This document shows, in pieces, positions 13,648-49,440 of a DNA stretch of 64,000 bases (positions are counted from its first letter, which is position 1; every line of letters begins with the position of its first letter). The DNA lies in NCBI RefSeq assembly GCF_030148435.1, contig NZ_JASBTN010000066.1, positions 1 to 64,000 of the forward strand, written 5' to 3'. This DNA comes from Aliiroseovarius sp. (GTDB taxonomy: Bacteria; Pseudomonadota; Alphaproteobacteria; Rhodobacterales; Rhodobacteraceae). The notes beneath the pieces are model-generated. The model saw only the letters and a list, made by a program, of their open reading frames with translations. It did no database searches and was not told the origin of the DNA. The translations under genes were made by a program, and so were the position numbers.

Positions 13648-14661
13648 ATGGCAATCGAAGCTGCAGACAGCCAGTTCAGCGTTGCGACTGGCGGGAATGT
13701 GAATACCTCCGGCGGGTCCAGCGCCTTCGACGGGCCGCCATCGGACACGACCGGCCTGAACGTGACGCCGAACGCAGGCGATCCGAGCCCCTATCAGTTC
13801 ACTCCCGGCGAAACCTACGACCTGGAATATACCGACCCTTCGGGAAAAACCGTGACCTTGGAGGATGCCGGGGTTTTGCGCTCGGACACCTACAGCGGTG
13901 GCGTGAATGTCGTTGTGTTCGAGGGCGAGGATCAGGATGGCAACACGGTGCAGGTCTGCTGGGCGCCGGACTATGACCTTCAGGGCTGGTATGACCAGGC
14001 GGAGGACCGGGGGACGCCGCGCTTCTACACGGCGGATCAGCTTGGCACGACCTATGGTCATGTCTGCCTTGCCGCCCGGACGTTGATCGAAACCCCGCGC
14101 GGGGCGGTGCAGATCGCGGATCTTCGGCGGGGTGACAGGGTTGTCACCCTGGATGGCCCCTCCGAGCCGGTGACATGGATCGGGCGCCGTCAGGTGGCCG
14201 GGATTGGCCCGGCGGCACCGATACGCTTTGCGCCGGGAGCGATCGGAAACCACCGCCCGCTGCGCCTGTCCGGTCAGCACCGGGTGCTGCTGGTCCATCC
14301 GCTGGCCGATCTGCTGTATGACAGTTCCGAAGTACTTGTCCCGGCGAAGTCCCTGATCAACGGCGATACGATCCGTTGCGAACCCTGCCCTCAAGTCACC
14401 TGGATGAATCTGGCGACATCCTCCCACGCGCTGATCCGCGCCGAAGGCGCCGCGGTGGAAACGCTCTGGCTGGGCGAGGTGGCGCGCAATGTGCTGGGGG
14501 AGGCCGGGCAGATCGCGGCCAACTATCCCGACCTGTCCGGCGCCGGGCGTCCCGACCAGCTGTCGGTGCGCCCGATGCTGCGCCACCGGGAGGCATTGGA
14601 GCTACTGTCCCTGATCCACGGGCGCGACCTGCGCCCGGCGCGGCAGCTCTCGTTGCTGTAA
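13648..14661 (+). CDS. Hint-domain protein, probably exported
   Basis: The 337-residue protein has no classical signal peptide. Its N-terminal 135 residues are low in charge and rich in Gly, Thr and Asp. A Hint_2 (hedgehog/intein-like) domain starts at CLAARTLIETPRGAVQIADLR (about residue 140), and its conserved SGQHRVLL block follows near residue 208. Such proteins are common in Rhodobacterales, often many paralogues per genome, and are thought to be secreted and self-processing; the start cysteine of the Hint fold is present. No partner gene is adjacent, and it converges on the hairpin array. Confidence 0.75.
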   Translation: MAIEAADSQFSVATGGNVNTSGGSSAFDGPPSDTTGLNVTPNAGDPSPYQFTPGETYDLEYTDPSGKTVTLEDAGVLRSDTYSGGVNVVVFEGEDQDGNTVQVCWAPDYDLQGWYDQAEDRGTPRFYTADQLGTTYGHVCLAARTLIETPRGAVQIADLRRGDRVVTLDGPSEPVTWIGRRQVAGIGPAAPIRFAPGAIGNHRPLRLSGQHRVLLVHPLADLLYDSSEVLVPAKSLINGDTIRCEPCPQVTWMNLATSSHALIRAEGAAVETLWLGEVARNVLGEAGQIAANYPDLSGAGRPDQLSVRPMLRHREALELLSLIHGRDLRPARQLSLL

Positions 14662-14678
14662 CCCCACATCCGAAAACG

Positions 14679-14719
14679 AAAAAAAACGGCGACGCCCGGG
14701 AGGAGGTGGGCGCCGCCGT
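14679..14719 (-). terminator. Intrinsic terminator closing the hairpin array
   Basis: Left arm 14686-14697 and right arm 14708-14719 form a 12-bp stem with one mismatch around the loop ACCTCCTCCC. Eight T residues (14679-14686 on the complementary strand) follow on the minus strand. The terminator itself carries the same loop motif as the rest of the array and shows that the array is transcribed from the DUF1127 side. Confidence 0.88.
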
Positions 14720-15134
14720 TCTTCATGTGCCGTGGCGCCCAGGGAGGAGGAGAGGGCGCTCCGGCGTCCCGCTTCGCCCCAGGGAGGAGGAGAGGGCCTT
14801 GCGGTATCTGTTGAGCGGCGGGCCAGGGAGGAGGAGAGGCCCGCCGCCAATCCGATCACCCCAGGGAGGAGGAGGGGCGTCGGTATCTGTTGAGCGGCGG
14901 GGCCAGGGTGGCGGAGCGGCCCCGCCGCCAATCCGAACGACCCAGGGAGGAGGAGAGGGCCTTCGGTATCCGGTACGGCGGGATCTGGGAGGAGGTAGAT
15001 CCCGCCGCCAGTCTCAGACGCCCCAGGGAGGAGGAGGGGGCATCCGATCTTGGAATTCTGTGCGGCGGGACCAGGGAGGAGGAGAGGTCCCGCCGACAAT
15101 CACGGGCGTGTCTGGGAGGAGGTAGAAACGCCCG
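14679..15134 (-). ncRNA. Array of eleven CCTCCTCCC-loop hairpins (CcsR/cuckoo-like sRNAs)
   Basis: Eleven stem-loops lie head to tail, the first 12 nt after the DUF1127 stop codon. Loops start at 14698, 14741, 14781, 14825, 14863, 14905, 14944, 14986, 15025, 15073 and 15113. Ten loops read CCTCCTCCC on the minus strand; the one at 14905 is changed to CCGCCACCC. Stems differ in sequence but still pair: perfect 10- to 11-bp stems flank the loops at 14825, 14905, 14986 and 15073. Strong and weaker hairpins alternate, giving a two-hairpin unit of about 82 bp. This matches the known CcsR RNAs of Rhodobacter, which are cut from a DUF1127 mRNA and resemble the anti-Shine-Dalgarno sequence. Eleven hairpins is more than I know for that locus. 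Confidence 0.85.
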
Positions 15135-15145
15135 ATCCGTGTTCC

Positions 15146-15361
15146 TTACTTGCCGTAGGCGGCGTGCCAGGCGATATGCCGGATCTCGCTACGGGTGATG
15201 CCCAGGTCGGCCAGTTCGCGGCCGGACAGTTGGTTCCGTTCGCGTACGGTTCCGGTGAACAGCCTGCGCTGGGCGCGGGCCGCTTGCAGCTGCTTCCAAA
15301 GGGCGGTCAGCCGGTCGGCGACACGGGTTTCGGAAGTGTTGTATTCGGTTGCGTAAGCCAT
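15146..15361 (-). CDS. DUF1127 small protein (CcaF1-like)
   Basis: The 71-residue basic protein has the DUF1127 pattern: a helical N-terminal part (LTALWKQLQAARAQRR) and a conserved C-terminal RNQLSGRELADLGITRSEIRHIA. In Rhodobacter sphaeroides the equivalent small protein is encoded just upstream of the CcsR RNAs and binds RNA. The same arrangement here, with hairpins starting 12 nt after the stop, strongly suggests one transcript carrying both protein and small RNAs. In Rhodobacter this unit responds to stress through RpoH-type sigma factors; I could not identify such a promoter with confidence here. Confidence 0.88.
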   Translation of the reverse strand: MAYATEYNTSETRVADRLTALWKQLQAARAQRRLFTGTVRERNQLSGRELADLGITRSEIRHIAWHAAYGK

Positions 15362-15706
15362 GGGCTCTCTCGTTCTCTTGTCGGGTGCGCACTGGGCGCA
15401 GAGGGTCTGGTAGCGCTAGCGTGTTGCGCTGTTGAGAAGAAAATGGGGGCTATGCTGCAGATGCACAATCCCGGAAAAGAGAAATGCTGCTATGCAGAAA
15501 ATGCATGCCTTCATTTGACCCAAGGTCATGTGATTTCAGCGGGTTAACCTGTCGCTTTTCGCACGTGAAACGCCGCATATTCGGGCAGGGTGCCGCATGC
15601 TGTGGCATCTTGCCTCGGGCATTTGGTCGCGTGGGCTTGTTCTTGATGCAAAAGGCGGCAAGTAATGGCGCACGAACAGGCAGCTTGATATGGCACGGAG
15701 AAAATC
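15362..15706. promoter_or_regulatory. Divergent promoter region with a 17-bp direct repeat
   Basis: This 345-bp spacer separates the DUF1127/sRNA unit from apbC. Two direct repeats of the form GCTATGC-N5-ATGCA lie at 15449-15465 and 15489-15505, exactly 40 bp apart, or about four helical turns, and 88-144 bp upstream of the DUF1127 start. They look like a regulator-binding pair for that transcript. CCTTGGGTC on the minus strand near 15520 is a possible -35 element, without a convincing -10. The apbC side has only a ribosome-binding site (GGAG near 15695). Confidence 0.5.
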
Positions 15707-43892: not shown

Positions 43893-43944
43893 ATAATGCC
43901 GGAAACACCTCGGCTGACTGCAATACCGCCCGGAGGAGAGGCCC

Positions 43945-45108
43945 ATGTTCAATCACACGATGAATTTCGACCTTGGTGAAGACGTCAACGCCCTGCGTGA
44001 GATGGTGCACCGCTTCGCCCAGGACCGCATCAAACCCATCGCCGCCGAGGTGGATGAAAAGAACGAATTTCCCAACGAGCTGTGGAAGGAATTCGGCGAC
44101 CTGGGCCTCTTGGGCGTCACCACGCCCGAGGAATATGGCGGCTCGGACATGTCCTATCTGGCCCATGTGGTGGCTGTTGAAGAGATCGCCCGCGCCTCGG
44201 CCTCGGTCTCGCTGTCCTACGGCGCGCATTCGAACCTCTGCGTGAACCAGATCCGCCGCAACGCGACCCCGGAACAGGCGGCGAAATACCTGCCGGGCCT
44301 GTGTTCGGGCGAAAAGATCGGCGCGCTGGCGATGTCCGAAGCTGGCGCGGGCTCCGACGTCGTGTCGATGAAGCTGAAGGCGGAAAAGCGCAACGGCTAC
44401 TACGTGCTGAACGGCACCAAGTTCTGGATCACCAACGGCCCGGACGCCGACGTGCTGGTGGTCTATGCCAAGACCGACCCGGAGGCCGGTCCCAAGGGGA
44501 TCACCACCTTCATCATCGAAAAGGAAATGGTCGGCTTCTCGACCTCGCCGCATTTCGACAAGCTGGGCATGCGCGGGTCGAACACTGCCGAGCTGATCTT
44601 CGAAGACGTCGAAGTTCCCTTCGAAAACGTGCTGGGCCAGGAAGGCAGGGGGGTTGCCGTGCTGATGTCGGGCCTCGACTATGAACGGGTGGTTCTGTCG
44701 GGCATCGGCACCGGCATCATGGCCGCCTGCCTGGACGAGATCATGCCCTATCTCGCGCAGCGCAAGCAGTTCGGCAAACCGATCGGGGATTTCCAGTTGA
44801 TGCAGGCCAAGGTGGCGGACATGTACACCGCGATGAACTCGGCGCGGGCCTATGTCTACGAGGTTGCCAAGGCCTGTGACCGGGGCGAAGTGACCCGCCA
44901 GGATGCGGCGGCCTGTGTTCTGTACGCGTCCGAGGAAGCAATGAAATGCGCCCACCAGGCGGTGCAGGCGATGGGCGGCATGGGCTTCATGAACGAAACC
45001 CCCGTGAGCCGCATCTTCCGCGACGCCAAGCTGATGGAGATCGGCGCGGGCACGTCCGAAATCCGCCGCATGCTGATCGGCCGGGAACTGATGGGGGCGA
45101 TGAAATGA
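43945..45108 (+). CDS. ivd: Isovaleryl-CoA dehydrogenase
   Basis: The 387-residue acyl-CoA dehydrogenase oxidises isovaleryl-CoA to 3-methylcrotonyl-CoA with FAD, passing electrons to ETF. It has [14 protein letters not shown] (about residues 130-143), [19 protein letters not shown], and the catalytic Glu247 in [10 protein letters not shown], the internal position used by isovaleryl-CoA dehydrogenases rather than the C-terminal Glu of other family members. It heads the operon, is preceded by GGAGGAGAG, and shares ATGA with mccB. Confidence 0.95.
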
Positions 45109-46953: not shown

Positions 46954-47505
46954 ATGCCCCGGATAGAGATCATCACCGGCGACATCACCACGCTGAACGT
47001 GGACGTGATCGTCAACGCTGCCAACAGCTCGCTGCTGGGCGGGGGCGGCGTGGATGGGGCGATACACCGCGCGGCGGGGCCAGAGCTTCTGGCCGAATGC
47101 CGCACGCTGGGCGGCTGCGATACCGGACAGGCCAAGGTCTCCGGTGGCTATAACCTGCCGGCCAAGCATGTGATCCACACCGTAGGGCCGGTCTGGAAGG
47201 GCGGCAACGCGAACGAGGCGGCGCTTCTGGCGGGCTGCTATGTGAACAGCCTGCGTCTGGCCGTCGAGGCGGGGGCTGACAGCATCGCCTTCCCGGCCAT
47301 CTCGACCGGCGTCTACGGCTACCCGGTGGACGAGGCCGCGCGCATCGCCACCTGCACCGTGCTGGGCTGGGCGAAGGAAAACCCCACGCCCGCCCGCATC
47401 ATCCTGTGCTGTTTTTCTCAAGCCTCGGCGGCCGCGCATCGCGCCGTGCTGGGCGGGGCCACCTGGCCTGACGACATGACAACCCCCCGAGGGGAGGAGG
47501 ACTGA
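46954..47505 (+). CDS. Macrodomain protein (O-acetyl-ADP-ribose deacetylase type)
   Basis: The 183-residue protein is a single YmdB/MacroD-type macrodomain: IEIITGDITTLNVDVIVNAANSSLLGGGGVDGAIH (residues 4-38), where the NAAN and GGGGVDGAI loops bind ADP-ribose, then HTVGPVW and AFPAISTGVYGYP. It should remove acyl or ADP-ribosyl groups from ADP-ribose derivatives. It lies between mccB and mccA, all in one direction, and its stop abuts mccA. A role in the pathway is not established; see findings. Confidence 0.9.
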   Translation: MPRIEIITGDITTLNVDVIVNAANSSLLGGGGVDGAIHRAAGPELLAECRTLGGCDTGQAKVSGGYNLPAKHVIHTVGPVWKGGNANEAALLAGCYVNSLRLAVEAGADSIAFPAISTGVYGYPVDEAARIATCTVLGWAKENPTPARIILCCFSQASAAAHRAVLGGATWPDDMTTPRGEED

Positions 47506-49440
47506 ATGTTCAACAAGATCCTGATTGCAAACCGGGGCGAGATTGCCTGCCGGGTCATGGAAACCGCCCGCAAGTTGGGCGTGGCGACCGTGGCGGTCTA
47601 TTCGGACGCCGATGCGCGGGCGAAACACGTGATGATGGCGGATGAGGCCATACACATCGGCCCGCCGCAACCTGCCGAAAGCTACCTGCGGGGCGATGCG
47701 ATCATCGCCGCTGCCCTTGCCACCGGGGCGCAGGGCATTCACCCGGGATACGGCTTCCTGTCGGAAAACCCCGATTTCGTGGACGCGGTCGAGGCTGCGG
47801 GCCTGACCTTCATCGGCCCCTCGGCCAGCGCGATCCGCGCCATGGGCCTGAAGGACGCCGCCAAGAAGCTGATGGTCGAGGCGGGCGTGCCCGTTGTGCC
47901 CGGCTATCACGGTGACAACCAGGACCCTGCCTTCCTGGCCGCCGAGGCCGACAAGATGGGCTATCCGGTGCTGATCAAGGCGGTCGCGGGCGGCGGCGGC
48001 AAGGGGATGCGCCGCGTCGATGATCCCGCCGACTTCGCCGACGCTCTGGCCAGCGCGCAGGGCGAGGCACAGACTGCTTTCGGCAACCCGGACGTCCTGA
48101 TCGAGAAATATATCCTCAGCCCCCGCCACATCGAGGTGCAGGTCTTTGGCGACGGCACCCATGCGGTGCACCTGTTCGAACGCGACTGTTCGCTGCAACG
48201 TCGTCACCAGAAGGTGATCGAGGAAGCCCCCGCGCCGGGCATGACCCGCGAGGTGCGCGAGGCCATGGGCAGCGCCGGTGTGCGCGCCGCCGAGGCGATC
48301 GGCTACAAGGGCGCGGGCACGGTCGAATTCATCGTGGATGGCGCGAACGGCCTGCGCCCCGACGGGTTCTGGTTCATGGAGATGAACACCCGTCTGCAGG
48401 TGGAACACCCGGTCACGGAAGAGATCACCGGGGTCGACTTGGTTGAATGGCAGCTGCGCGTTGCCTCGGGCGAAGGGCTGCCGGCGCGGCAGGAGGACCT
48501 GTCGATCAACGGCCATGCCTTCGAAGCCCGGCTCTATGCCGAAGACGTGCCGAAGGGTTTCCTGCCCGCCACCGGCACCCTGACCCACCTGCGGTTTCCC
48601 GAGGGTGCTCGCGCCGACAGCGGCGTGCGGGCAGGGGACACGATCAGCCCCTTCTATGACCCGATGATCGCCAAGCTGACCGTGCATGGCGCGACGCGGG
48701 CCGCAGCGCTGCAACGGCTGACGGCGGCACTGGAACATTGCGAGGTCGCCGGGTCTGTCACCAACCTGGGCTTCCTCGGCGCCCTGGCCCGGCACGAGGG
48801 CTTTTCGGCGGGCGATGTGGACACCGGGCTGATCGAACGCGACCTCGATGCCCTGATCGCCGAGGATGGTGCGACGATCAGCGACATCGGCGCGGCCGCC
48901 CTCTCCGCCTTGAACCTGCTGAAGCCGAAGGGGTCGGGATTTACCCTGTGGGGCGGGCTGAACCATTTCGTCACCCTGACCCATGGCGAGGAACAGTTCG
49001 ACGTGGTGGTCACTTCGTACGGGGCCGATCACCACGTGATCACGGTCGGCGACAACCAGATTGAGGCGATTGCGATTGACGGCCAGTGGAAGCTGGGCGG
49101 CGACCGCGGTCCGCGGGTTGCCCGGGCCGGAAACGTGGTGACTGTGTTCACCGGCTCGGGGCTGGAGTTCCACGTGGCCGACCCGCTGGACCGCGACGCA
49201 GGGGTCGGGGCCGGGGCGGGCGTGATCAAGGCGCCGATGCCGGGCTTGGTCAAGGCGGTCTTTGCCGGGGCCGGACAGGAGGTCAAGCAGGGCGACCGGC
49301 TGGCGATCCTGGAAGCGATGAAGATGGAGCACTCGCTGGAAGCGGCGCGCGATGGCGTTGTGGCCGAGGTGCTCTGTTCGGATGGCGATCAGGTCGAGGC
49401 CGGCGCCCCCCTGATCCGTCTGGAGGACGAAGATGAGTGA
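47506..49440 (+). CDS. mccA: Methylcrotonyl-CoA carboxylase biotin-containing alpha subunit
   Basis: The 644-residue subunit has a biotin carboxylase domain (about 1-445; IANRGEIACRVMETARKLG, GGGGKGMR, EMNTRLQVEHPVTE), a linker/BT domain and a C-terminal biotinyl domain with EAMKMEH, where Lys606 is biotinylated. It carboxylates biotin with ATP and bicarbonate for MccB. The start is directly after the macrodomain stop, behind GGGGAGGAGG. It overlaps the GST gene by eight bases. Confidence 0.95.
   Translation: MFNKILIANRGEIACRVMETARKLGVATVAVYSDADARAKHVMMADEAIHIGPPQPAESYLRGDAIIAAALATGAQGIHPGYGFLSENPDFVDAVEAAGLTFIGPSASAIRAMGLKDAAKKLMVEAGVPVVPGYHGDNQDPAFLAAEADKMGYPVLIKAVAGGGGKGMRRVDDPADFADALASAQGEAQTAFGNPDVLIEKYILSPRHIEVQVFGDGTHAVHLFERDCSLQRRHQKVIEEAPAPGMTREVREAMGSAGVRAAEAIGYKGAGTVEFIVDGANGLRPDGFWFMEMNTRLQVEHPVTEEITGVDLVEWQLRVASGEGLPARQEDLSINGHAFEARLYAEDVPKGFLPATGTLTHLRFPEGARADSGVRAGDTISPFYDPMIAKLTVHGATRAAALQRLTAALEHCEVAGSVTNLGFLGALARHEGFSAGDVDTGLIERDLDALIAEDGATISDIGAAALSALNLLKPKGSGFTLWGGLNHFVTLTHGEEQFDVVVTSYGADHHVITVGDNQIEAIAIDGQWKLGGDRGPRVARAGNVVTVFTGSGLEFHVADPLDRDAGVGAGAGVIKAPMPGLVKAVFAGAGQEVKQGDRLAILEAMKMEHSLEAARDGVVAEVLCSDGDQVEAGAPLIRLEDEDE

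Follow-up and report, generated by a model that had tools for sequence, protein, structure and literature searches.

The hairpin array and its DUF1127 gene

The 64,000-nucleotide stretch of Aliiroseovarius DNA analysed here (the window) carries, on its minus strand, a gene for a CcaF1-like DUF1127 protein of 71 aa (15146–15361; PF06568, 37.1 bits). This gene lies directly upstream of an array of 11 hairpins on the same strand (15134–14682), ten of which display CCTCCTCCC in the loop and the last of which is a terminator. The array is real, and hairpin folding and inspection of the loops confirmed the first-pass annotation of this DNA, which had described 11 minus-strand stem-loops, ten with the motif, ending in a terminator with the same loop. 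Read along the minus strand, the motif is found in the loops of hairpins 1 (15103–15134, −13.4 kcal/mol), 2 (15061–15098, −22.5 kcal/mol), 3 (15008–15053, −20.3 kcal/mol), 4 (14975–15008, −21.9 kcal/mol), 5 (14933–14973, −10.0 kcal/mol), 7 (14849–14887, −16.3 kcal/mol), 8 (14814–14848, −25.1 kcal/mol), 9 (14769–14804, −13.5 kcal/mol) and 10 (14729–14765, −20.9 kcal/mol). Hairpin 9 is weak, reaching −5.4 kcal/mol when taken as a 5-bp stem (14797–14776). The terminator, hairpin 11 (14682–14723, −28.3 kcal/mol), also presents CCTCCTCCC and has a run of eight T (a U tract) on its 3′ side. Hairpin 6 (14893–14929, −28.1 kcal/mol) has a 13-bp stem and a loop without CCTCC, the core of the anti-Shine-Dalgarno (anti-SD) motif; with its strong stem intact and its loop altered, it is a natural variant of the motif.

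The weaker member leads in all five successive pairs (1–2 to 9–10), hairpins 3 and 4 being nearly equal, and one repeat family has start-to-start spacings of 82, 81 and 81, which bears out the alternation with a period of about 82 bp noted earlier. The 3.3-Mb genome holds 28 CCTCCTCCC sites on both strands, ten of them in 425 bp of array sequence; the reversed pattern, used as a control, has 30 sites, some possibly inside the array.

Kinship with the CcsR and ar14 RNAs

The genome holds five DUF1127 genes, and only this one is followed by an array. The Rfam family ar14 (RF02344) matched hairpins 9–11 on the minus strand (14682–14809) at 67.7 bits, above its threshold of 58.8; two more matches in the array, at 57.8 and 53.9 bits, fell under it. 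CcsR1 (RF02791) gave five matches of 35.2–49.7 bits, which tile hairpins 1–2, 3–4, 5–6 and 7–8, with a weak one on 10–11. Because every one of these is below the family threshold of 65.3, the array is not filed as CcsR1 itself. The comparison with CcsR and cuckoo covariance models that had been proposed for this array therefore succeeded once, with ar14, and fell short with CcsR1. CcsR-like sRNAs accompanied by short DUF1127 proteins are reported to be frequent in alphaproteobacteria and have been labelled CIN1 (PMC10253847). The CIN1 hallmark of neighbouring hairpins that show CCUCCUCCC in their loops was found in 10 of the 11 loops; another feature by which such loci are recognised is a stress-induced transcript processed by RNase E with CcaF1.

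Judged by these matches, the locus is of the Rhodobacterales ccaF1–CcsR kind, in which a DUF1127 gene is followed by CcsR/ar14 (cuckoo) RNAs. The kinship suggested by the first-pass annotation holds in this form, resting on the PF06568 match, the ar14 match and the sub-threshold CcsR1 tiling. It divided the array into a terminator unit and five RNAs of two hairpins each, which is one possible parsing; the Rfam matches suggest another, with four CcsR1-like pairs (1–2 to 7–8) and a three-hairpin ar14-like end (9–11).

Two conserved dyads at the array promoter

We compared the locus with 80 named loci, chosen by similarity to the window's DUF1127 protein. In 76 of them the divergent Mrp gene has a homologue; MraZ homologues were counted in 64 and, within limited flanks, UvrD homologues in 46. 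On the other side of the array, a Hint-domain gene (13648–14661) converges on the terminator; only one of the 80 loci has a homologue.

Upstream of the DUF1127 gene, CCCCCATTTT (15440–15449, minus strand) resembles an RpoH −10 element. Together with an upstream TTGTGC it makes a conserved TTGT-N18-CCAT, found in 40 of 81 loci against a shuffled mean of 0.2, the sigma factor assignment being borrowed from Rhodobacter sphaeroides. The upstream regions also share CTGCATAGCAGCA, about 30 bp further on TTGTGCANNTGCAGCA, and then CCCAT; a strict anchor of this kind fits 41 of 81. The R. sphaeroides ccaF1–CcsR operon is reported to be under RpoHI/RpoHII control (PMC10253847).

Two dyads lie at this putative promoter. 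Dyad 1, TTCTGCATAGCAGCA (15485–15499, minus strand), is a PhaR-type site of the form CTGC-N3-GCAG. Dyad 2, TTGTGCATCTGCAGCA (15453–15468, minus strand), has the form TGC-N4-GCA, overlaps the putative promoter and sits between its −35- and −10-like elements, and the centres of the two are 31.5 bp apart. In relaxed form, within 350 bp upstream, dyad 1 was retrieved at 79, dyad 2 at 71 and both at 71 of 81 promoters, compared with 29, 7 and 1 of 303 control segments of the same loci. The strict CTGCN3GCAG occurs at 53 of 81 promoters and in none of the 303 controls. In a second sample, both dyads were present at 68 of 81 loci with at least two hairpins and at 2 of 15 with fewer, the patterns having been shaped on the first sample, with which the second shares species. 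What appears to be new here is this conserved pair of TGC dyads, which correspond to the PhaR site CTGCN3GCAG. Because they are located in a stretch shared with mrp, they could also serve that divergent gene.

Dyads and PhaR across the family

According to the parts of PMC12542648 consulted, the R. sphaeroides PhaR site is CTGCNNNGCAG, in two phasin promoters the −35 element has palindromes on both sides, two in all, and in Sinorhizobium meliloti PhaR binds at the mmgR promoter, which belongs to an sRNA gene. PhaR is present in the genome analysed here. Allowing a single mismatch, the pattern TGCTGCN3GCAGCA has 22 sites in it, listed on both strands because the pattern is palindromic; the reversed control occurs at 2 per strand. 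Of these sites, two lie between phaC and phaR and one upstream of a thiolase gene. Others are found where a PPDK-like frame begins, beside panB, before a second DUF1127 gene and at the array, and several more lie inside open frames and look incidental. CTGCN3GCAG was also observed within 400 bp upstream of two other DUF1127 genes of this genome that have no array (G000:C17:13395 = L202, L005; L001), hinting that DUF1127 genes may belong more widely to the PhaR regulon.

Of 80 handles, 79 gave a PhaR match, as did 385 of 395 family genomes. Four of the ten genomes without a match have an array of at least two hairpins behind the DUF1127 gene (G003 and G398, from one genus, G153 and G364), and neither dyad was detected within 500 bp at these arrays. 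Among the named loci, 27 of the 80 genomes were tested for PhaR, a subset picked so that the two loci lacking dyad 1 (L055 and L062) were among them. Of the 27, the genomes of these two alone gave no PhaR match, and neither dyad was found at their arrays. By their DUF1127 proteins, the six PhaR-less genomes with arrays form four groups, with two identical pairs and 51–63% identity between groups over the matched part. Of the array-carrying genomes with PhaR, 76 in all, 73 have dyad 1, 70 have dyad 2 and 68 have both; eight lack one or both. The only one with neither was G105 (L186), whose PhaR falls in a higher-scoring group.

Counted by lineage, dyad 1 occurs in 0 of 3 PhaR-less against 73 of 76 PhaR-bearing cases (Fisher's test, p = 2.5e-4). 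With the hand-picked named set added, less four repeated genomes, the counts are 0 of 4 against 94 of 97 (p = 9e-6), three keeping PhaR without dyad 1. Because promoters share ancestry, these p values are only a guide; moreover, the PhaR-less cases are few, and L055 and L062 come from assemblies of unstated completeness. PhaR-less lineages may have lost this promoter detail for other reasons. As it stands, the array promoters show what PhaR regulon membership is judged by, a CTGCN3GCAG-type promoter site that is kept with PhaR and lost without it. No link between PhaR and CcsR, or between PhaR and DUF1127, was found among the titles listed in the literature searches (at most six to eight each) or in parts of PMC12542648, PMC4344238 and PMC10673084, although an earlier mention is possible; PMC9230146 and PMC10986841 proved unrelated.

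The array could instead be under RpoH control only, with the dyads serving another factor or the divergent mrp and having nothing to do with PhaR. RpoHI/RpoHII control is indeed the published regulation in R. sphaeroides (PMC10253847), and the mrp homologue accompanies nearly all loci (76 of 80). We nevertheless consider this rather unlikely, given that the −35- and −10-like elements of the array's own promoter flank dyad 2, that the dyads match the published PhaR site (PMC12542648) and recur at PHB genes in this genome, and that neither was found at an array whose genome has no PhaR match.

Conserved loops and candidate targets

Stems vary freely around the kept loops. At each of the eight loop-proximal stem positions, all six standard pair types occur (up to 644 hairpins), with mutual information of 0.7–1.5 bits (644 hairpins). 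Because the stems were detected by pairing, the pairing itself and part of this information are built in. The loops contain CCUCCUCC in 543 and CUCCUCCC in 584 of the 644 hairpins, the CCTCC core being fixed by the choice of rows because hairpins were picked by CCTCC. A search of the gaps within arrays for further strong hairpins added 13, nine with CCUCC and four without; the latter are hairpin 6 of the window and one each in L009, L047 and L057. We rejected the idea that the loop is a copy of the 16S anti-SD tail, since CCUCCUU occurs in one of the 644 loops compared with 543 for CCUCCUCC (all loops having been chosen by CCUCC).

GGAGGAG is found 3–9 nt before ATG at 69 sites in the genome, compared with eight for the reversed pattern, and part of this excess is normal Shine-Dalgarno (SD) usage. 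We sampled 30 of the 69 loci, which gave 28 translated frames of 30–501 aa, and scanned 18 distinct proteins. Those encoded behind the sampled leaders include DctP-type and ABC transporters, an acyl-CoA dehydrogenase, a biotin carboxylase-type protein and dihydrolipoyl dehydrogenase. Two candidate targets lie on the plus strand of the window: GGAGGAG at SD distance before the acyl-CoA dehydrogenase gene (43932–43947), and the full 9-nt complement GGGAGGAGG at SD distance before the biotin carboxylase-type gene (47492–47508). Outside the array, GGGAGGAGG has 18 sites, two at 5 nt and one at 2 nt before the ATG of a long frame and four more before GTG. These positions decide nothing, because all 18 sites underlie some long open frame, and the full complement was dropped as a target rule.

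A free loop was predicted to pair with three leaders at −16.4, −18.7 and −23.1 kcal/mol, loop strain being left out. The 16S tail was predicted to pair more weakly with the same leaders (−13.3, −12.1 and −16.0 kcal/mol). The titration of mRNA leaders raised in the first-pass annotation fits the loop sequence. In a related case, the ar14 RNA NfeR1 is reported to silence an ntrB reporter through its anti-SD loops, which are described as redundant (PMC10746234).

The hairpins might mainly titrate or recruit a protein, such as CcaF1, Hfq or another RNA-binding protein, and their loops would then not be mRNA seeds. For CcsR RNAs, both an interaction with Hfq and a CcaF1-dependent maturation have been reported (PMC8307010, PMC8625941), and hairpin 6 retains its stem without the motif. 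We regard this as improbable, as kept loops on freely varying stems suggest that the loop sequence itself is selected, and the seeds of NfeR1 act by pairing (PMC10746234); protein binding is still compatible with both observations.

Array length, strand and structure

At least two hairpins follow the DUF1127 gene in 79 of the 80 named loci, and at least 11 in 20 of them (gap hairpins included, cut-off −6). At this cut-off the scan counts the window's array as 10, not 11, because hairpin 9 is left out. In the second sample (66 genomes, cut-off −5), which shares some species with the named loci, 63 genomes have at least two hairpins and 16 at least 11, while two loci have one and one has none. 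The array is not universal, as 17 of 24 same-family relatives have a protein match and 15 have an array of at least two hairpins. Even counts outnumber odd ones by 59 to 21 (named loci and window, entered as 10), an excess that fits a two-hairpin unit. The longest array, that of Alexandriicola marinus (L050), has at least 24 hairpins, largely in a repeated three-hairpin unit, and near-identical repeated units are found in the arrays of L050 and L082.

The first-pass annotation had seen a notable copy-number expansion in the window. Lengths of 11 or more are common in the family, so length was rejected as the new element. Behind this DUF1127 gene, arrays of anything from 2 to 24 hairpins are commonplace, and in anatomy and length the present one is typical of a known kind of sRNA locus. 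Such variation in number, like the near-identical units of L050 and L082, would also be expected of a structured repeat or terminator cluster that grew by slippage and has no regulatory function. Diverse paired stems with kept loops, and a promoter conserved across many genera, make this highly improbable.

The 462-nt minus strand folds with a z-score of −8.46 relative to shuffles, compared with −2.40 for the plus strand. Stem mismatches flanked by Watson–Crick pairs comprise 155 G–U, 16 A–C and 65 others (537 hairpins from 79 named loci and the window). The excess of G–U over A–C and the fold z-scores indicate that the minus strand, that of the DUF1127 gene, is likely the RNA, in support of the earlier strand assignment. 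A CsrB-like sponge on the plus strand, which places GGAGG in nine hairpin loops and whose GGA loops would titrate CsrA, was given next to no credence and rejected, as no CsrA match was found in this genome, both the G–U/A–C asymmetry and the fold z-scores speak for the minus strand, and the T run follows the terminator on that strand.

A proposed link between carbon storage and anti-SD RNAs

We consider it likely that the locus is a ccaF1–CcsR operon with an RpoH-type promoter, yielding anti-SD sRNAs and held under PhaR repression that PHB relieves. The promoter, about 100 bp upstream, would drive transcription of a DUF1127 mRNA whose 3′ region is the hairpin string and its terminator, and the array RNA would probably be processed into two- and three-hairpin sRNAs. 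Each loop would present UCCUCCUCCC and pair with purine-rich SD sites (GGAGGAG) in a limited set of mRNAs. Those led by GGAGGAG, for example from transporter and central-carbon genes, would be blocked in translation, and the several loops of an array may act as redundant doses. The two PhaR-type operators, one overlapping the promoter, would be bound by PhaR and keep the operon repressed; accumulating PHB would then draw PhaR away from these sites and relieve the repression. From sequence evidence, then, we infer that PHB storage gates the array through PhaR. With a stress promoter and PHB-relieved repression combined, carbon storage and stress would jointly set the dose of anti-SD loops.

A broader reading, held with less assurance though we lean towards it, is that across Rhodobacterales these arrays are the RNA arm of the PHB sensor PhaR, and that array length sets the dose that represses mRNAs with GGAGGAG leaders. 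On PHB accumulation PhaR would leave its two operators, spaced by about three helical turns, the RpoH-type promoter would open, and the repressed set would include transporter genes and the one for dihydrolipoyl dehydrogenase. In R. sphaeroides, the pyruvate dehydrogenase complex is reported to be modulated by CcsR RNAs (PMC8625941), and PhaR of S. meliloti is reported to raise this complex and lower PpdK (PMC12542648). If PhaR represses an array that in turn represses the pyruvate dehydrogenase complex, this would plausibly provide an RNA route for the positive effect of PhaR. If true, PhaR control would tie anti-SD silencing to carbon storage. The prediction also makes it possible to test directly, in a laboratory model, how PhaR can act positively on pyruvate metabolism.

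Comparison with known systems

Sponges of the CsrB/RsmY type are built of repeated hairpins with one loop motif, their GGA loops binding CsrA. The array shares repeated hairpins and a single loop motif with them but differs in that this genome has no CsrA match.

A close resemblance in layout is to ccaF1 (RSP_6037) and CcsR1–4 of R. sphaeroides, where a DUF1127 gene is likewise followed by same-strand hairpins with CCUCCUCCC loops and a terminator, under an RpoH-like promoter. Unlike CcsR1–4, the array has 11 hairpins; in the set compared, the number in close kin of R. sphaeroides is 8 (Cereibacter johrii, L010; Luteovulum azotoformans, L024) or 13 (Cereibacter changlensis, L007). It also differs in its sub-threshold CcsR1 matches and in hairpin 6, which is without the motif. 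PhaR-type dyads are not mentioned for CcsR1–4/ccaF1 in the parts of the literature consulted.

As in the ar14/cuckoo RNAs NfeR1, SmelA075 and SmelA099, adjacent hairpins carry CCUCCUCCC loops on variable stems, and the ar14 model passes on hairpins 9–11. Published members are described as having two to four hairpins (PMC3927594, as far as consulted), whereas here the run is longer and stands behind a DUF1127 gene.

MmgR (alpha-r8) of S. meliloti belongs to another sRNA family, being a 77-nt sRNA of three stem-loops with the anti-SD motif in the first loop. Like the array, it is an sRNA with an anti-SD loop and a PhaR site in its promoter, and PhaR binding, predicted here, has been shown for MmgR (PMC12542648, PMC7143759, each consulted in part).
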